DNA of 64,000 nt, from NCBI RefSeq assembly GCF_001083805.1, contig NZ_JXSK01000004.1:62001-126000 (forward strand), in the 5' to 3' direction. The DNA is from Photorhabdus luminescens subsp. luminescens (lineage in GTDB: Bacteria > Pseudomonadota > Gammaproteobacteria > Enterobacterales > Enterobacteriaceae). A program made the translations under genes and the position numbers. The notes below the pieces were generated by a model. The model worked only from the letters and a program-made list of their open reading frames with translations, did not search any database and was not told the origin of the DNA. Shown here in pieces: positions 35,888 through 54,923 of this stretch. How positions within the stretch are numbered: position 1 is the first letter of the stretch; each line of letters starts with the position of its first letter.

Positions 35888-35902
35888 TGCCAAGGAGTTG
35901 TG

Positions 35903-38900
35903 ATGAGTCTATTACAGAATGTCTGGGCGGGCGCCGGCGCGGCCCGCCGCACGCCGGCCTCCCCGCCCCGGCAAACGCCCCCCGATACCGAGGCAAACGC
36001 CCCGGCTAAACCCGCCGGCCCGCCGCCCCGGACCGCCAAGACAACCTCAGGTTCAGATAAAGCGCTGGCGTTTCTGGAAAGCGACGCCTTCAACAAAGCC
36101 ACGCTGGGCGCGGCCGGGGCCTATGCGGTCGCCACCGGCGCGGCCGCCCCCTTTGCCGCCGGCCTGGCCACCGGGACCGTCGGCGCGTATGTCGGCAGTT
36201 ATGTCGGCGATAAAATCGGCCATCAGGTCGCGCAGGCGCTGGGCATGCAGACCGTCTCCACCGAAGGCAATGCGCCCGCCCGGCTGGGGGATGCCATTGC
36301 CCATCAGAATAAAAGCGCCGGGTTATGGGGCGCGCTGGGCGGCGTCTTACTCGGGGCCGTGGTGGCGGTGGCCGCTGCCGCCTTTGTGGTCGCCACTGCC
36401 GGCGTCGGGGCCGCCATCCTCGCCGGCGCCGCGGCCGGATTAGCCGGCGGCTTTGTCGGCGCCGCTTACGCCAGTCTCGGGGCCGCTATCGGACAATACG
36501 GACAAAATAAAGGCACCATCATTGAAGGCTCGCCCAATGTCTTTTTTGACGGCAAACCGGTGGCCCGGGCCGGGGACAAAATTGTGTGCAGCGACCACCC
36601 CGGCCCGGTGGTGATTGCCGAAGGCGCCAAAACCGTGTTCGCCAACGGCAAGCCTATTGCCCGGCTGGGCCACCGCACCGCCTGTGACGCCAATATCAAC
36701 AGCGGCGCGGCATCGATTGCCATAACCCAGGAAACGCAGGGGGTCTGTGACATCCTCATCAGCAACGACCGGGCCTTACGCTGGGCCGTGGCGCTGGCCG
36801 GTTTCATTCCCCTGCCCAGAGGGAACAAAAACCGCCCGCATGAAACCCCCGCCCCGTCGGTGAAAAAAACCGGCTGTGACAGTCAGCTTTGCAGCAAAGC
36901 CGGCGAGCCGGTGGATGTGGCGACCGGCGACTTCTTGCAGGTCTGGCCGGTGCTGGCCCTGCCGGGCGTCCTGCCGCTGGCCCTGAACCGCACTTACCGC
37001 TCGACGGCCAATCTCGCCGGGCTGTTCGGCCCCCAGTGGGCCGATGACTGGTCGCAACACCTGCGCCGCGACGGCGAGGAAACCCATTTCACCGACGGCG
37101 AAGGGGTGATTTACACCTTCCATACCCCAAAGGACAACGTCTTCTCGGTCAACCTCCATGCCGGCCATTATCTGCTGTACGGGCAACTGAGCGGCGAGCT
37201 GCGCCTGTTTAACCGCCGCACCCAGCAGATACTGAGTTTTACCGAGGTCCAGGGGGATAAACGCCGCCTGTCCCGGATAGAAGACCGCAACGGCAATCAG
37301 ACCGTCTTTCATTACGACGAACACCACCGCCTGACTCATCTCACGCATGCCGACACGGCGACACTGACGCTGCGCTATACGCAACAACAACTGACCGCCA
37401 TTGACTGGCTGCACGCGGAACAACGCCAGCGGCTGGCGACCTGCCGCTACGATAACCAGGGGTATCTGGCCGAATGTGACGCCTTTCAGTTTCACCACCT
37501 GTGGCATGAATACAATCCGCACGGCCATATGACCCGCTGGCACGACACCGATAAAACCGATGTCACCGTGCACTATGACAACGCGGGCCGGGTGACTGCC
37601 ACCGCCACCCCGCAGGGGTACTGGCAGGACCGCTTTGAATACGATGATGACAATAACGTCACCACCTATTTCGATGCCGAAGGCGGCTGTACCCGCTATC
37701 ACTATAACGCCGACGGGCTGGTCACCCGGAAAGTCGACCCCCTCGGCCATGCATCCCTGACCGAATGGGATTTCAGTTGCAAAGTCGCCGAAACCGACCC
37801 GCTCGGCCGGACCACGGCTTATGAGTACAGCCCCTACGGCGAGCTGACCGGCTTGCTGTCGCCCACCGGGGACGTCACCGCTTACGATTACGATGAATAC
37901 GGCCAGCTTACCCAGGTCACTCAGCCGGATGGCGCCCGCTGGCGACTGCATTACAGCGAGCAGGGGAACCTGAGCAGCGTTATCGACCCTCAGGGCCGGG
38001 TGGAAGAGACCCGGTACGGCCCGCAGGGGGAAATCCTGCGCCAGGTCTTGCCGGACGGCCGCGCCTGGCGCTACGGCTATGAACAGCAGCAGCTCAGTGA
38101 AATTCAGGCCCCGGACGGCGCCCGGACCCGGTTTGACATCGACGGCCTGGGCCGGCTGCGGCGGGTCACCGACGCCCTGTACCAGCAGACGCGCTATCAC
38201 CACAGCCCGTCTCATGCCAGCCCGGCCGGCAGTGTCAGCGAGATTTGCTTACCGGACGGCGTGCGGCAGACGATTGATTACGACAGCGAGCGCCGGGTCT
38301 CGGCGGTCACCGACGGCGAAGGCCGGACCACCCGCTATACCTATGACGCCTTTGACCTGCTCAGCCGCCTCACCCGCCCGGACGGCTCGGCCCTGACCTT
38401 CGGCTACGACAGGCTGACCCGCCTGAAAACCGTGACCAACGCAACCGGCGACACCTACCGTTACACCCGCGACCCGGCCGGCCGGGTTATCCGCGAAACC
38501 GATTTTACCGGCCGGACGATTGACTATCAGTACGACCGCGCCGGGCGCCGCCTCATCGCCCGTTACCCCAATCACCAGCTGCTGCGCTGGTGCTACACCG
38601 ACGACGACCGCCTCACCCGTCAGGAAGTGTGGCAGGAAGCAGCCGACCAGTGCGCGTTACTGTCAGTCACCGCCTACGACCACGACGCGCAGGGACGGCT
38701 GGTCCGCGCCGCCAACCCGGACGCCGTGGTGGCGTTTGAATACGATGAATCCGGCCGCCTGATTACCGAGACGATTAACGGGCGCGCCGTCCGCCATCAG
38801 TGGGACCCGCAAAGCGGCCTGCCCGCCGGACGCCAGGTAGACGCCCTGCCCGCCTTACGCTGGCACTACGGCCTTAACGGCCGGCTGATGCAGTGGCAGC

Positions 38901-40426
38901 TTGACGGCCATGCCCCGCTGAACATGCAGCATGACGGGCTGGGCCGGGAAAGCGCCGCCGGTTTTATTCAGTCACAGGCTTACACCCCGGTCGGGCTGCT
39001 GGCCCATCAGGCCGCCGGGCGCAGTTCAGACTGGTTCAAACAGACGCTGTACGAGGCCGACCCGCATTATCCGCCGCTCGGCAGCGCGGTCACCCGGCGC
39101 TGGCATTACACCCCGGCCTACAACGTGGCCTGCATTGAAGACCCACTCTGGGACGAGACGCGCTACGGCTACAATGCGAACGACCAGGTGGTGACCGCCC
39201 AGTTTGGCGGGCCGCGGGCCTGTGACGAACAGTTTGTGTACGATGCCGGCCAGAACCTCCATTACCACAAACGGGTGCCGGAACGGCTCAGCGAAGACCT
39301 GCGCCAGGCCTACCACACCCAGCAGACCGGCCGGGTCGTTCAGCACGGGGCCTGCACTTATCGCTACGATGAAAACGGGCGGCGGACAGAGAAAACCGAG
39401 CAGCGATGGGGTCACCGGCCGCGGACCTGGCGCTACCGCTGGGACGCGCACGACCGGCTGACCGGGGTTATCAGCCCGGAAGGGACGCGCTGGCGCTATT
39501 GTTATGACGCCTTCGGGCGGCGGATTAGCAAGCGGAAGGAAGCAGACCCGGCCGGACCGCCGGCCAAACCGACCACGATAATCGGCTATGATTACCTGTG
39601 GAGCGGAGAGCAGCTGATTGAAGAGACGCCGGTGTATGCGGACGGCACCGTTGACTATGAACAGAGCATTCACTGGCTCTATGAGCCGGGCGCCCTGACC
39701 CCTTCGGCACGGTATCAAAAAGGTCAGCTATACTATGTGGTGAGCGACCACCAAGGGACGGTGCGGGAAATTCTGACCGAAGCGGGGGAACTGCTCTGGG
39801 CGGGCCGGCTGCTCACCTGGGGCGAGCCGGAGCGCTGGCCGGTGCTGACGGTCAACGACCCACGGAACCTGACGTGTAATTTCCGGTTTTGTGGGCAGTA
39901 CGAGGACTCGGAGAGTGGTTTATACTATAATCGCTTTAGGTATTACGATAACGAGATCGGGCAATACCTCTGTGCCGATCCATTAAATCTTAGTGGCGGA
40001 TTTAACCCATACGGGTATGTGCATGATCCAGTAAACTGGATTGACCCATTGGGGCTGGCGGGGTGTCCAGGGGCAAAAAATAAGAAAACTACCTATGAAG
40101 GTAAAAGCCGTCGTGATGCATTAAGGCAGGCTAAGAGAGATACTGGAATACCCAATATTCAACAGCCTAAAATTGATAGAGTCGATTTGTTAGATGGAAA
40201 TGGAAAGAAAATTATTGGCTCAAATGGGCAAGTTATAAAAGTAAGACAATACCATTACACAAATAAAGATGGTAAGCCTATAGTCATTCAGGAACATAGT
40301 CTAGGACATGAAAAAGCGACTCCGGGGCATGGCGCTGAACCTCATTTTAATGTTAGACCTATCACTAACTTGGGTACTGGCGATGTGCCTGGAACACATG
40401 GACATTATAATTTTCCGAAGGGATAA
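35903..40426 (+). CDS. PAAR-containing Rhs polymorphic toxin with HNH-like nuclease tip
   Basis: A 1507-aa Rhs protein. ATG 35903 follows AAGGAG with five bases between; an in-frame GTG three bases earlier is too close. Order: Pro-rich N-terminus (15-50); two Ala/Gly-rich membrane segments (about 65-105 and 140-195); a PAAR-like domain (about 205-275, with VFFDGKPVARAGDKIVCSDH and VFANGKPIARLGH); the DUF6531 start (AGEPVDVATGDFLQVWPVL); many YD/Rhs repeats; and the tip boundary NWIDPLGL at about 1380. The last 122 residues (SRRDALRQAKRDTGIPNIQQ, then IQEHSLGH and PHFNVRP) resemble the HNH/EndoVII EHHH-type nuclease toxins. It is probably delivered on a T6SS spike. The core is GC-rich, while the tip is AT-rich. 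Confidence 0.88.
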   Translation: MSLLQNVWAGAGAARRTPASPPRQTPPDTEANAPAKPAGPPPRTAKTTSGSDKALAFLESDAFNKATLGAAGAYAVATGAAAPFAAGLATGTVGAYVGSYVGDKIGHQVAQALGMQTVSTEGNAPARLGDAIAHQNKSAGLWGALGGVLLGAVVAVAAAAFVVATAGVGAAILAGAAAGLAGGFVGAAYASLGAAIGQYGQNKGTIIEGSPNVFFDGKPVARAGDKIVCSDHPGPVVIAEGAKTVFANGKPIARLGHRTACDANINSGAASIAITQETQGVCDILISNDRALRWAVALAGFIPLPRGNKNRPHETPAPSVKKTGCDSQLCSKAGEPVDVATGDFLQVWPVLALPGVLPLALNRTYRSTANLAGLFGPQWADDWSQHLRRDGEETHFTDGEGVIYTFHTPKDNVFSVNLHAGHYLLYGQLSGELRLFNRRTQQILSFTEVQGDKRRLSRIEDRNGNQTVFHYDEHHRLTHLTHADTATLTLRYTQQQLTAIDWLHAEQRQRLATCRYDNQGYLAECDAFQFHHLWHEYNPHGHMTRWHDTDKTDVTVHYDNAGRVTATATPQGYWQDRFEYDDDNNVTTYFDAEGGCTRYHYNADGLVTRKVDPLGHASLTEWDFSCKVAETDPLGRTTAYEYSPYGELTGLLSPTGDVTAYDYDEYGQLTQVTQPDGARWRLHYSEQGNLSSVIDPQGRVEETRYGPQGEILRQVLPDGRAWRYGYEQQQLSEIQAPDGARTRFDIDGLGRLRRVTDALYQQTRYHHSPSHASPAGSVSEICLPDGVRQTIDYDSERRVSAVTDGEGRTTRYTYDAFDLLSRLTRPDGSALTFGYDRLTRLKTVTNATGDTYRYTRDPAGRVIRETDFTGRTIDYQYDRAGRRLIARYPNHQLLRWCYTDDDRLTRQEVWQEAADQCALLSVTAYDHDAQGRLVRAANPDAVVAFEYDESGRLITETINGRAVRHQWDPQSGLPAGRQVDALPALRWHYGLNGRLMQWQLDGHAPLNMQHDGLGRESAAGFIQSQAYTPVGLLAHQAAGRSSDWFKQTLYEADPHYPPLGSAVTRRWHYTPAYNVACIEDPLWDETRYGYNANDQVVTAQFGGPRACDEQFVYDAGQNLHYHKRVPERLSEDLRQAYHTQQTGRVVQHGACTYRYDENGRRTEKTEQRWGHRPRTWRYRWDAHDRLTGVISPEGTRWRYCYDAFGRRISKRKEADPAGPPAKPTTIIGYDYLWSGEQLIEETPVYADGTVDYEQSIHWLYEPGALTPSARYQKGQLYYVVSDHQGTVREILTEAGELLWAGRLLTWGEPERWPVLTVNDPRNLTCNFRFCGQYEDSESGLYYNRFRYYDNEIGQYLCADPLNLSGGFNPYGYVHDPVNWIDPLGLAGCPGAKNKKTTYEGKSRRDALRQAKRDTGIPNIQQPKIDRVDLLDGNGKKIIGSNGQVIKVRQYHYTNKDGKPIVIQEHSLGHEKATPGHGAEPHFNVRPITNLGTGDVPGTHGHYNFPKG

Positions 40427-40430
40427 TAAA

Positions 40431-40835
40431 ATGAATATAATTGATGCTATTGACAGTAATTTGTTTTTAAAGGAATTGTTTCCTCTAGGTTTAACGGAAG
40501 ACGTTTTTCTTGGTCAAATTGGTTTTGATGTAGAAGGAAGAATTTCTTTAAATATTCACACGAAACAAAGACCCGAAAAGGAAATTGTTAAGTGGGGAGT
40601 TTGGGGAAAAGATTATGATGTCATTGTCATAAAATTACTTGGGCGTGGTGGCAAGTCAGTTAATATAAAGAATTTGAAGAATATTAACTATAGTCCGCTA
40701 TTTATAGCTCAACATAATGATGGCTATATCATAAAACAAGTATCTGATTCTTGGAGTGTAGAATTTGACTTCGATATAATGATTTTCCAAAGATGCAATG
40801 TCTATATTGATGGTGGTGACGATCCAGCATTATAA
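40431..40835 (+). CDS. Putative immunity protein for the HNH-tip Rhs toxin
   Basis: A 134-aa soluble protein starting MNIIDAIDSNLFL, four bases after the rhs stop, with AAGGGATAATAAA upstream. A longer open frame runs back into rhs from 40308, but the ATG at 40431 is the natural start. Position and size are those of a cognate immunity gene. KWGVWGKDYDVIVIKLLG and DSWSVEFDFDIMIFQRCNVY resemble small Imm50-like immunity proteins, but the match is weak and from memory. A terminator follows. Confidence 0.7.
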   Translation: MNIIDAIDSNLFLKELFPLGLTEDVFLGQIGFDVEGRISLNIHTKQRPEKEIVKWGVWGKDYDVIVIKLLGRGGKSVNIKNLKNINYSPLFIAQHNDGYIIKQVSDSWSVEFDFDIMIFQRCNVYIDGGDDPAL

Positions 40836-50114: not shown

Positions 50115-50444
50115 ATGAGTGGTCTAAGCGCCGTCATATCAGTCAAGCTTAAACTTGGTAAAGACAGTTATAACGTTGATTTAAATATTCCATCGGCAAC
50201 CCCGGCTCCTGAAGCACCTTTTCTTTTTAGTGTCGTTTCACCCGAAAAAGATGGACAACCTGCAAATACTTTATTAGAAGTCGCTATCGGTAATTCAGAA
50301 CATATCTATATTGCCGTTGCACCACCAGGTTCATTATTGAAAGAAACAGGTGTTGATAAGGTAGTGGAAAGTCTTAATGTTGTCGTTTCCGAAGGTAAAT
50401 ACAATAAAACAGACAAGAAATTTGATATAGAGAAAAAATCCTAA
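50115..50444 (+). CDS. 109-aa protein of the lectin/giant-protein cassette, unknown
   Basis: A small soluble protein starting MSGLSAVISVKLKLGKDSYN, with VDLNIPSATPAPEAPFLFSV in the middle and a Lys/Asp-rich tail (KYNKTDKKFDIEKKS). Alternating hydrophobic residues suggest an all-beta fold. No signal peptide, membrane segment or recognised domain. Ribosome site TTAGGAGAATAAC is strong. It lies 90 bases upstream of the 1235-aa gene and probably shares its transcript. Confidence 0.7.
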   Translation: MSGLSAVISVKLKLGKDSYNVDLNIPSATPAPEAPFLFSVVSPEKDGQPANTLLEVAIGNSEHIYIAVAPPGSLLKETGVDKVVESLNVVVSEGKYNKTDKKFDIEKKS

Positions 50445-50534
50445 ATTATCCGCTCAATATTAATCATAAGGCTATGCGTTTAGAACCATAAATAACATAG
50501 CCTTAGCAATACATCTCACTATCTGAGGTAAAAT

Positions 50535-53500
50535 ATGGGAACACGATTTGAGATTGAAGCCCATTTAGATTGGTGCAAAATATTTGATGGCGAAATGCGT
50601 AGCCCAATGCAATGCCAGCTTGCTTTATTCAATAGTTATTCTTTAATCTATATCGATATGACTGCAAAACAGGCAGGAGCTGACAATCTCAATATCTTTA
50701 AATTACTTAACCACGCCTTTCATCTTAACTTACCTGAGAAAGAAGCCCCGTTATTAATACAGGATGCAGGTTTTTTTACTTTCTCCAATCATGCCAATCC
50801 ACCAGAAGCAGAGAAACTGTGTAATATTTTTCCACAAATACCTTTACCAAAGTCAGTGACAGAAATGGAAACGCCGGTATCCCATAGTTGTACCTTCTGG
50901 CTAACCTTGCGTTTAAAAGGGAATTATTTATTTAACAACTTAATTGAAGTCGGCGTTAAAAATGGCGATCTACCACAGGCAGACATCTCACTCAGTGGGC
51001 GTTTGGATCGGGGAATATCCGCAGGTGAATCAATTAAACAAAGTCGCTATACTGCCGTTCTTCCTGATTTCAAACTATTTAAGATTTTTGGCTTCAATAA
51101 TTTAATACTTAAATATCAGTTTGATAATTACGCAAAATATGAAATAGCAGGCACTATCACATTAGATTTGTTCCAGAAAACGTATTGTTTTGATGGGGCT
51201 TTAAGCGCAGATGAAAAGCAAGTACAGGCATCTTTAAAAATCTGTCATAAAGGCTCAGAAAGCACTATTGAACAGCCCTTTGACGGAAGAATGACTGGCG
51301 TCACATTTGATGATTTATCTTTTGGCATTGATTACACCTTTGCCGTGCCAGAAAAGAAACAATCTAAAGTTGGATTATATTGGGTAAAGGGAACAATTAA
51401 TTATGCAAAATTACCCGCATTAAGTGGATATCTTTATTTTCTAGATAATACCCCCATATTGGCTTCAGTCGCTATTAATAAAGATTTATCGATACATGAT
51501 ATATTTGAGGCATCATTTGCTAATCCCCTTTTCTCCTGGCCAAGTAATTTTATCGATATCGTTTTTCATCCGGGGAGCAACCTTTATTATCGGCGCGAAA
51601 CAGATGGAGATATTAAACAGGAAAATACGATTATTTCCTCTTTAGCCGAAAAGTCTCTGTTATTAAATCAGGATATTACCCATTATCAGCCAGGATTTCA
51701 CCTCTATGCCCTGTTTGACATTACATTGATTGAAACTTTGACGCTCAAAGGGGATATACAAATTACCAAAGAAGGCGTCAATGCAGAGATCCAGCTACTT
51801 AATCCAATTTCATTATTTGTACTGCAAATTACGGGTTTTGGGCAAGATCCAGGTCCAACCCTGTTTTTCTCTACCGTCAAGGAAAATAAATTCGGCCTTC
51901 GCTGTGGGCTGCTGTTTTTTAAACATGATTTTGGTTTAAATGTAGAAATATCAGGTATAAAAGAGAAAACCGGGGAATTAAAAATCAGTGGCTCATTGTC
52001 CTCAGACAAAATTTCTTCTCCGTTATTACCCAGTTCAGCGAAATTAGGTTTTTCCTATAGCAAAAGCGCAGGATTTAAAATCACTGACTGGCCTGCATTT
52101 AATTTAGATAACAACCAGTTTATTAACTTTATCGAAGAATTAAAAAAATTCTCAAGCAGTAAAGGTTCCAATTGCGGCCAATTAACCCACTTTGTCAATG
52201 AACATTTACTCACATCCCGGTTTTCTATTTCCCCGTCGTTTGATACTAAGACGGATAATTCTAGCCAAAACGACCAACTGTATTTTGTGTTAAACGGTAA
52301 GTACACCATGACAATGGCAGGAACGGATTTCGTTACTCTCTCCTTCCCAAAAACCGTAGAGTTTTTGCTGCCAAACAACCTCTCTTTAGAGGAATTACCT
52401 AATGCTATCGGTGCAGCGCTGAAAAGCGCGGCTGAGTCTTTCATTCAAGGGCTATTGGAAAATCGTGAAGCTATCGCAGCCTTTCTGACGTTGACAGCCG
52501 CCGAGAAAGCCGCCGATTATGCCATGACGTTACTGTGTGAGGGATTGGTTGACGCCGCGCTAACAGAAACAGTCCAGAGCGGTGCAGAAGCCTTAGCCGC
52601 TGCCGGGGGCGTAGCAGCAGGAGCTGCGGGAGCGGCTATCATAAGTAACATTATCAATAAAATTAAAGATGAAATTGACAACAAACCAATACCTCCCGAT
52701 CCTCCCAAGCCTGCCGATCCCAAACCGCCTGAAAATTTGTCAGCAATCTATGAGGATCATAAGGCTAAATTCGCATGGGGCTATACGAAAAATGCTGACG
52801 GTTATCAGGTCAAATTAAAAGCGCCAAATAACGAAACATTATTCAACAAGAAACTGAATCACAACGATAATTCCGTCATTTTACCTATCAGTCCGGAATT
52901 AGCCGCTGGCGTTTATACTTGGTCAGTCGCCGCCACCAGGCAAGACTTTATCAGCTCAGAAAATCAATTACACCAGCATCGTCTGCCAATACCGGAATTG
53001 AACATCAATTTAGAAACAAAACCCATTATTGAAAGAGATATTAATCTTATATTGAAGTGGAATTTGGTAACAGATGCCAGTCACTATAACGTACAAATCG
53101 AGGAAAATGGACAAATCGAAAACCGCTCAATTGCCGCTCCACAGAATTCAGTGACTATTATTTTTGATAAGCTGAAACCTACCGGGAAATATCGTTTTTC
53201 ATTAGCAGCATTGAACAACCCCAATTATATTGCCAGCGAATTCTGTCAGGTTCAGCAATGGTCACGTCTGGATACTCCTCAGCAAATTCAGGCTAATTAC
53301 CAATCTGGCGGCATAGAGATTCAATGGCAATGCTGTCCCGATATTACTCATTATTTACTCAGCTTACTGGCTCCAAACAATTCATGGATACAACAAACCG
53401 TGAATTCCACAACTGGACGAGCCCATATTGCTTTACCACCGATCCCGATTGCAGGAACATATCAACTTTATTTAGCTAGCATGCCGGATACCACCGTAAC

Positions 53501-54242
53501 ATCAATCCCAAGTATCTGGAGTGATGGAGTGGCAATAGAAGTGGTAATAACACCAGAACAAATTGCACAGTCGGCATATCAACAACAGATGAGTGGCAAT
53601 GATTGCGGCAAATTGATAATTAAATCCTTGCCTGATCTCAAGGCGCATATGCTCGCAGCAGCTATGGCGCAAGTAGGCTATATAGCAGTAGAAACTGGGC
53701 AAGGATTAAAATCAGCCTACCCAGCCATCAACGCCAGCGAAATAACCGAAATACTACTGACCATATATGGCAAAGCATTAACCCTAGAACAATTGGCTCA
53801 GAAAGCGTATGACAAACACCTATCCGGCAGTCAATGCGGACAGACATTAATCACTGAATATCCGGCAATCCAAGCCAAAGCATTAGGCAGCGCTATGGCG
53901 ATGGCAGGTTATCCAGCAACAGAAACCGGACAAGGATTAAAATCAGCCTACCCAGCCATCAGCGCCAGCGAAATAACCGAGATACTACTGGCTATATATG
54001 GCAAAGCATTAACCCTAGAACAATTGGCTCAGAAAGCGTATGACGAACACCTATCCGGCAGTCAGTGTGGACAGACATTAATCACTCAATATCCTGCAAC
54101 CCAAGCCAAAACATTAGGTCGCACTATGGCGCTGGCGGGTTATCCAGCAATAGAAACCGGGCAAGGATTAAAATCAGCCTATCCATCCATCAGCGCCAGC
54201 GAAACAACAGCCGTCCTGCTAGAAATTTATGGTAGACGGTAG
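50535..54242 (+). CDS. 1235-aa multidomain protein with FN3-like domains and 77-aa C-terminal repeats
   Basis: A large protein without a signal peptide. Residues 1-about 670 are a long beta-rich region of unknown family (repeated motifs such as LTLKGDIQITKEGVNAEIQ). An Ala/Gly-rich hydrophobic stretch follows (ALAAAGGVAAGAAGAAII, about 684-703), then a proline linker (IPPDPPKPADPKPPE, about 717-732). Three fibronectin-III-like modules span about 731-1004 (KAKFAWGYTKNADGYQVKL, LILKWNLVTDASHYNVQI, IEIQWQCCPDITHYLLSL). Three 77-aa repeats fill 1005-1235, each with AQKAYD...SGSQCG, AMAMAGYPATETGQGLKSAY and SASEITEILLAIYG. The architecture suggests a surface or toxin-like adhesion protein, but the export route and function are unknown. 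Ribosome site TGAGGTAAAAT. Confidence 0.8.
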   Translation: MGTRFEIEAHLDWCKIFDGEMRSPMQCQLALFNSYSLIYIDMTAKQAGADNLNIFKLLNHAFHLNLPEKEAPLLIQDAGFFTFSNHANPPEAEKLCNIFPQIPLPKSVTEMETPVSHSCTFWLTLRLKGNYLFNNLIEVGVKNGDLPQADISLSGRLDRGISAGESIKQSRYTAVLPDFKLFKIFGFNNLILKYQFDNYAKYEIAGTITLDLFQKTYCFDGALSADEKQVQASLKICHKGSESTIEQPFDGRMTGVTFDDLSFGIDYTFAVPEKKQSKVGLYWVKGTINYAKLPALSGYLYFLDNTPILASVAINKDLSIHDIFEASFANPLFSWPSNFIDIVFHPGSNLYYRRETDGDIKQENTIISSLAEKSLLLNQDITHYQPGFHLYALFDITLIETLTLKGDIQITKEGVNAEIQLLNPISLFVLQITGFGQDPGPTLFFSTVKENKFGLRCGLLFFKHDFGLNVEISGIKEKTGELKISGSLSSDKISSPLLPSSAKLGFSYSKSAGFKITDWPAFNLDNNQFINFIEELKKFSSSKGSNCGQLTHFVNEHLLTSRFSISPSFDTKTDNSSQNDQLYFVLNGKYTMTMAGTDFVTLSFPKTVEFLLPNNLSLEELPNAIGAALKSAAESFIQGLLENREAIAAFLTLTAAEKAADYAMTLLCEGLVDAALTETVQSGAEALAAAGGVAAGAAGAAIISNIINKIKDEIDNKPIPPDPPKPADPKPPENLSAIYEDHKAKFAWGYTKNADGYQVKLKAPNNETLFNKKLNHNDNSVILPISPELAAGVYTWSVAATRQDFISSENQLHQHRLPIPELNINLETKPIIERDINLILKWNLVTDASHYNVQIEENGQIENRSIAAPQNSVTIIFDKLKPTGKYRFSLAALNNPNYIASEFCQVQQWSRLDTPQQIQANYQSGGIEIQWQCCPDITHYLLSLLAPNNSWIQQTVNSTTGRAHIALPPIPIAGTYQLYLASMPDTTVTSIPSIWSDGVAIEVVITPEQIAQSAYQQQMSGNDCGKLIIKSLPDLKAHMLAAAMAQVGYIAVETGQGLKSAYPAINASEITEILLTIYGKALTLEQLAQKAYDKHLSGSQCGQTLITEYPAIQAKALGSAMAMAGYPATETGQGLKSAYPAISASEITEILLAIYGKALTLEQLAQKAYDEHLSGSQCGQTLITQYPATQAKTLGRTMALAGYPAIETGQGLKSAYPSISASETTAVLLEIYGRR
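53547..54239 (+). repeat. Three tandem 231-bp coding repeats (3' end of the 1235-aa gene)
   Basis: Units 53547-53777, 53778-54008 and 54009-54239 encode 77 residues each. Units two and three are nearly identical in DNA over long runs (AACCCTAGAACAATTGGCTC and GGACAAGGATTAAAATCAGC recur), while the first half of unit one has diverged. Each unit appears to contain two half-repeats of about 38 residues. Confidence 0.9.
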
Positions 54243-54287
54243 TTGTATCGCGAGTTTATTTAGTCAACAGATATAAGGAGTATTGCT

Positions 54288-54923
54288 ATGACTTTAGTCT
54301 CCAAAGAGATGTTAATGACTCCACTCTACCCCATTGATATCGCTGTTATTTTACGTGAGCTTGACTTTCCTGCTAACGAGATTGCAGTTGCACTGCACAA
54401 GCACTTCCCAACGCTTCCTCCACTAGACGTTGGTCAAATGTTGCTTAATCCTAAAGTGTATCCAGCGATAACTCGCTCAGAATTAGTCACAGCCTTGAGT
54501 GTCGCTGGCTTTCAAGCCCAAGAAGCTGAGTTAGCAGCCAATATTTTGTATCCAATCACTGTGTCTGTACTTGCGGATAAGGCTTGGCAGAATAGCGGTG
54601 TGACAGTCAACACAAATCAGACAACCACAATTACCTATCTCAGCGGCACATGGTCTTTTGACCCAAAGTACAACGATTGCCAGGCAGAAGGAGATAAGGC
54701 TCATATTGCCCAGGAAGACTACACGTTACCAGGCCAGCCAGTAGGCGCACTGGTAGGCCGTGTCGGTGAAACCGTTTTTTTGATCAGTCGTGAAGCCAGT
54801 GTCCCGAGTGGGTCATCTGGTGAATTACAGCTTTGTATCAACGATGACTTAAAAGGGCGTTATGGTGCCGGATTAACAGATAATAAAGGTAAGCTGGAGG
54901 TTAAAATCAGTACACGAGAATAA
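54288..54923 (+). CDS. Protein with helical repeat-like N-terminus and LecA-like lectin domain
   Basis: A 211-aa protein. Residues about 10-92 contain two helical half-repeats (ILRELDFPANEIAVALHKHF; ALSVAGFQAQEAELAANILY) similar in pattern to the C-terminal repeats of the preceding protein. Residues about 93-211 resemble the galactose-binding lectin LecA/PA-IL: SGTWSFDPKYND, GDKAH, GALVGRVG and INDDLKGRYGAG align with the calcium and sugar loop. His139 and Asp186 match the LecA His50 and Asp100; the calcium-binding Asn pair (LecA N107/N108) is not evident. No signal peptide, as in LecA itself. Ribosome site ATAAGGAGTATTGC; 45 bases after the giant gene. Confidence 0.75.
   Translation: MTLVSKEMLMTPLYPIDIAVILRELDFPANEIAVALHKHFPTLPPLDVGQMLLNPKVYPAITRSELVTALSVAGFQAQEAELAANILYPITVSVLADKAWQNSGVTVNTNQTTTITYLSGTWSFDPKYNDCQAEGDKAHIAQEDYTLPGQPVGALVGRVGETVFLISREASVPSGSSGELQLCINDDLKGRYGAGLTDNKGKLEVKISTRE

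Follow-up and report, generated by a model that had tools for sequence, protein, structure and literature searches.

The closest described systems are the LecA (PA-IL) and PllA lectins (PF07828), the lectin EclA of Enterobacter cloacae, in which an N-terminal LecA domain is joined to a fucose-binding domain (available part of PMC11875179), and the seven-bladed propeller PLL lectins of Photorhabdus (available part of PMC12203525). Here, a 64,000-nucleotide stretch of Photorhabdus luminescens subsp. luminescens (contig NZ_JXSK01000004.1, positions 62,001 to 126,000; hereafter the window) was analyzed for a three-gene cassette encoding, in order, a 109-residue protein, a giant protein of 1235 residues and a 211-residue protein with a LecA-like domain. 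Unlike LecA and PllA, the cassette lectins (7 members) are not reached by the Pfam model, and neither the window lectin nor the 6 other members matched PF07828 at E values up to 5. The cassette domain further differs from LecA in four extra calcium-loop residues in the alignments, in its fusion to a helical domain and in the adjoining giant gene; a true PA-IL protein is encoded elsewhere in the window's genome. Whereas EclA carries its LecA domain N-terminally, in the cassette lectin it forms the C-terminal part, next to a helical domain. The cassette of Pseudomonas sp. MWU15-20650 has a fourth gene that resembles the PLL lectins, but in its product the cassette's helical domain stands in front of the propeller. 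No description of such a cassette was found among the best literature matches. The cassette is tentatively interpreted as a horizontally spreading unit for a modular glycan-binding assembly, with a probability of about 0.4.

Gene order and conservation of the cassette

The three genes, like all window features given below, lie on the forward strand, each with an ATG start: the small gene at 50115..50444, the giant gene at 50535..54242 and the lectin gene at 54288..54923, separated by 90 and 45 nucleotides. Purine-rich stretches precede the starts (TTAGGAGAATAACAATG for the small gene, CTGAGGTAAAATATG for the giant gene and AAGGAGTATTGCTATG for the lectin gene), and the original prediction of co-directional, closely spaced genes with a ribosome site at each was confirmed. 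In pairwise comparison with the P. namnaonensis copies, the ratio of nonsynonymous to synonymous substitution rates (dN/dS) rose from the giant gene (0.25) through the small gene (0.32) to the lectin gene (0.56); the flanking modF and CAAX genes gave 0.08 each. All three open reading frames are therefore real genes, under constraint but evolving faster than their neighbors, and the lectin gene is the fastest-changing of the three. No promoter-like site stood out (17 found against 17.1 expected), and the 109-residue protein had no family at E values up to 1 in Pfam, NCBIfam and PHROGs.

Searches for the giant yielded relatives in 3/12 Photorhabdus genomes, in 4/295 genomes of the family and at six loci of a wider genome contig collection, the scan of which used short patterns and may miss loci; the window's genome is counted in the first two figures, loci overlap between searches, and there are eight loci in total. 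All three genes stand in order at 6/8 loci (the window, P. namnaonensis, Enterobacillus tribolii, genome G237, P. defluvii and Pseudomonas sp. MWU15-20650, where an additional gene lies within the unit in the last of these). At the P. akhurstii locus the small gene is followed by the giant to about residue 744, where the contig ends. P. khanii has a decaying cassette, with no small gene, a giant shortened to 778 residues (L019:6080-8416) and an open lectin gene. The proposed conserved multi-gene unit is thus upheld, with one locus cut by a contig end and one decayed. Separation of the three genes in other genomes had been named as evidence that would count against the proposal; the genes were not seen scattered, but their modules do occur apart. 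Homologs of the small gene lie directly upstream of the giant at five other loci (41-89% identity) and also in P. akhurstii. A small-gene profile matched 2/198 genomes of the family, those of the window and of E. tribolii, both with a giant and both contributors to that profile.

The neighboring genes differ by genus. In Photorhabdus they are modF and the gene of a CAAX protease; E. tribolii has genes for 836 and 784 residues, which look by eye like mrcB and fhuA, and Pseudomonas has other genes. The CAAX gene was located in 11 Photorhabdus genomes: upstream of it, 3 carry the cassette and 7 instead show the end of modF, no more than 1500 nucleotides away; one (L050) has neither cassette nor modF within that distance. 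Protein identity between genera is about 30-46%. The giants of the Pseudomonas copies are 34% identical to that of the window, against 30% for E. tribolii, and the lectins 42-44% against 36%; the small proteins hardly differ in this respect (43-45% in Pseudomonas, 41% in E. tribolii, 44% in G237). Because presence is patchy and the Pseudomonas copies are slightly nearer the window than those of E. tribolii, the pattern is consistent with horizontal transfer between genera.

Helical domains, the LecA-like domain and a second arm gene

The giant ends in three 77-residue helical repeats, matched at residues 1010-1232 (repeat 1, residues 1010-1078, 53562..53768; repeat 2, residues 1087-1155, 53793..53999; repeat 3, residues 1164-1232, 54024..54230), in agreement with the tandem helical repeats predicted. 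Four repeats are present in the giant of P. namnaonensis, three in that of Pseudomonas sp. MWU15-20650 and two in that of P. defluvii, and the E. tribolii and G237 giants gave four matches each, two of them partial. The lectin protein was modeled with helices at residues 15-87 (54330..54548). A repeat model built from 20 stretches of giants was tried on 9 helical-domain proteins (seven LecA-like proteins, the PLL-type protein described below and the helical-only protein of genome G161). It scored 14.7-28.6 bits on 8/9 and 9.3 bits on the ninth, the G237 lectin; 1000 shuffled starts of eight of the proteins reached 8.4 bits at best. Since every score exceeds the best shuffle, the relation between the giant's repeats and the lectin's helical domain is real and goes beyond composition, but is distant, as judged from these sequence profiles. 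The expected likeness between the helical region of the small partner and that of the giant was recovered in this way, and unrelated repeat regions, which would have spoken against the proposal, were not what was found.

An extra open frame of about 440 residues (L030:13775-15094) lies between the giant and LecA-like genes of Pseudomonas sp. MWU15-20650. The N-terminus of its product is the cassette's helical domain, and a sequence match of residues 146-432 to PLL3 (6t96, E = 3.4e-10), a propeller lectin, places the product with the PLL lectins; Pfam gave weak hits only. The system had been described as two-part, but two parts are too few where the second lectin is present. No PLL-type gene was seen in the window, and the PLL-like genes of the window's genome sit on another contig and match in the propeller part only.

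The C-terminal domain of the lectin protein (residues 88-211, 54549..54920; modeled as a beta domain from residue 90 onward) has the LecA beta-sandwich as its predicted fold and is, by this model and the alignments, LecA-like in fold class, as the original prediction had it. The motif NDDLKGRYGAGLTDN (residues 185-199, 54840..54884), present in 22/23 loci, aligns with the region that holds the calcium ligands in LecA-type lectins; D187 (or D186), D198 and N199 fall on that region by alignment, with a predicted local distance difference test score (pLDDT) below 50 for the loop 188-194. The EclA ligand residues used in this comparison were taken from the available part of PMC11875179.

A lectin profile matched 3/369 genomes of the class, the window's included, and 16/139 genomes of P. 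defluvii's genus, P. defluvii included. In the other 15/138 genomes of that genus the LecA-like domain lies within open frames of 732-814 residues, of which five were read and 3/3 checked with Pfam were GMC oxidoreductases. The domain also occurs in a 696-residue protein (L039) and at the C-terminus of a 661-residue frame near a RebB (R-body) gene (L040:5338-8552). Because it is found on proteins as different as these, the LecA-like domain is, on sequence grounds, a module that travels between proteins as their C-terminal part, and finding it in a protein does not by itself reveal that protein's role. At the GMC loci (L066-L079, L080-L083), a gene for 446-458 residues lies upstream on the same strand in 4/4 regions read, and a gene for 176 residues between it and the GMC gene was clear in 2/4.

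The lectin query was matched through its helical end only (up to residue 61-117) in 8/198 genomes of the family, and in one of these, G025, a search for the giant gave no match. Two of the proteins matched in this way were read, helical-only enterobacterial relatives of the lectin N-terminus with 141 residues (L021:6458-6883) and 140 residues (L022:5771-6193), both encoded near a large gene read by eye as pyruvate:flavodoxin oxidoreductase. Among plasmid records, 1206/72,556 match part of the lectin protein, among the matches listed mostly over 46-49 residues of the helical part; one plasmid has a helical fragment between IS26 copies (L035:3022-3225), and an Acinetobacter plasmid record (L034:808-1218) matches lectin residues 59-192 at 31% identity.

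Architecture of the giant protein and sorting signals

The N-terminal head of the giant (residues 1-611, 50535..52367) is beta-rich according to DSSP assignments on a model of low confidence (mean pLDDT 52.7), and helices are predicted, also at low confidence, at residues 618-715 (52386..52679). Because the modeled strands run to about residue 611 and the helices follow, the beta region, which had been put at 670 residues, is nearer 610. No family in Pfam, NCBIfam or PHROGs matched the head, a PDB sequence search gave nothing better than E = 1.3, and the best rows of a structure search with the head model were weak. DUF6603 (PF20248) was rejected as the head family, as searches of six genomes with E values up to 10 allowed gave no hit to it at a cassette. 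The helical region contains an Ala/Gly-rich hydrophobic stretch (residues 684-707, 52584-52655), which is the only segment in the three window proteins above the hydropathy cut, and the stretch aligned with it in other giants is Ala-rich by eye. FN3-like modules follow at residues 734-1003 (52734..53543), where the sole module over the Pfam fn3 cut-off lies at residues 839-895 (53049-53219) and scores just above it (27.3 bits against 25); the extent of further modules was judged by eye from the alignment. In the homologous giants, fn3 was below cut-off in E. tribolii and not listed in P. defluvii. The FN3-like modules foreseen in the giant are thus represented by one Pfam match, and their number is a by-eye reading since fn3 barely passes or fails the cut-off in these giants.

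This fn3 match was the only one over cut-off in the window proteins across Pfam, NCBIfam and PHROGs, with no toxin, pore-former or enzyme family among the results. Weak matches below cut-off were obtained to DUF5631 (0.055), three NCBIfam models (0.052-0.14) and phrog_30814 (function unknown, 0.012); those of the giant all fall outside the head. The repeats of the E. tribolii giant matched RepB_primase_C below cut-off (E = 0.0055). By hydropathy, which is not a trained predictor, none of the three window proteins showed a Sec signal peptide: N-terminal maxima over 19 residues were 0.43, 0.41 and 1.22, below the cut of 1.4. No membrane or wall anchor was seen on these proteins, and no lipobox by eye. 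The suggestion of a surface system therefore found no support in signal peptide or anchor, and that of a toxin system none in any domain match. About 10 kilobases from the cassette, the window encodes a 1508-residue PAAR-RHS protein ending in an HNH nuclease toxin domain (35900-40835), and a gene overlapping it gave an Imm50 match below cut-off.

Proposed assembly and alternative explanations

The data establish the order and conservation of the genes, the predicted fold class of the lectin domain, the kinship of the helical parts and the presence of the second arm gene; docking, sugar binding, release without a signal peptide, the target, movement between genera and the part played by the 109-residue protein are inferred. 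In the assembly envisaged, the giant would act as a scaffold that runs from the beta-rich head through a neck both helical and hydrophobic, a linker rich in proline and spacers of FN3 type to 2-4 helical repeats at the C-terminal end. The small lectin, in which a presumably calcium-type domain of LecA fold follows the related helical domain, would pack through its helical domain on the giant's repeats, one giant displaying one or more lectin arms, and these arms would anchor the complex on a glycan, galactose-like or not, carried by a host cell, a neighboring cell or a matrix. The arm may be exchangeable, because a second, PLL-type arm lies between the giant and the LecA-like gene in one Pseudomonas. 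The 109-residue protein might be a usual accessory, as a chaperone, cap or assembly regulator, and release might occur by lysis or an unknown route. By analogy with dockerin and cohesin, an undescribed family of scaffold-and-arm lectin systems can be imagined, in which the giant's docking repeats would accept lectins of unrelated folds (LecA-type and PLL-type) through a shared helical adaptor and the cassette would move between genera as a unit; this extension is doubtful.

Several observations weigh against the modular assembly. Contact between giant and lectin is a proposal, and helical domains can be related without docking on each other. The absence of a Sec signal peptide by hydropathy, the poor model of the head, the low-confidence loop between the aligned calcium ligands, the G237 lectin score only just over the shuffles and the moderate hhalign probabilities (74 and 70%) for the lectin-protein domain comparisons all count on the same side. 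Neither domain is special to the cassette, since the helical domain also occurs without a lectin domain and the LecA-like domain also occurs on GMC oxidoreductases. Alignment of the calcium site is no proof that sugar is bound, because the LecA-type domain of EclA retains calcium and yet had no specific ligand found, according to the available part of PMC11875179.

That the three proteins are separately acting exoproteins, merely co-expressed, with helical domains homologous by duplication and each having its own partner or a stabilizing or dimerizing role, would accord with the helical end matched alone in the eight genomes, including G025 without a giant match, and with the only distant relation of the lectin N-terminus to the repeats. 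One gene order across genera with short gaps, and a helical part common to the two unlike lectins beside the MWU15-20650 giant, make this explanation rather unlikely. A two-component toxin acting on insects, nematodes or protists, in which the lectin would bind the target cell and the giant's head or hydrophobic neck (684-707) would damage membranes or carry an activity inside, was judged improbable, as no toxin, pore-former or enzyme family passed cut-off, no activity is known, and the cassette is present in only 3/12 Photorhabdus genomes searched; pointing toward it are the head without a known fold, the hydrophobic stretch and its Ala-rich counterparts, and the hosts, Photorhabdus being an insect pathogen (available part of PMC12203525) and Enterobacillus tribolii linked to insects by name only. 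Toxin action as such is possible, although no toxin domain was matched, and a domain outside the known families might yet be toxic.

FN3 modules are common in matrix-scaffold proteins, and with the large LecA-like frames of P. defluvii's genus, GMC oxidoreductases where checked, they would fit a biofilm or matrix scaffold in which the FN3-bearing giant and the lectin cross-link extracellular polysaccharide, the LecA-like domain serving as an anchoring module. The window proteins, however, have no signal peptide by hydropathy, and no polysaccharide genes were recognized by eye among the neighbors, without a dedicated search; this explanation was considered the least probable. The giant's head is a large conserved protein region without a family in the libraries searched, and the LecA-like domain family is not named in the Pfam and NCBIfam copies searched. 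If the assembly is true, the helical part would offer a directly testable docking module, and the cassette would show how bacteria build mixed lectin displays from exchangeable arms.
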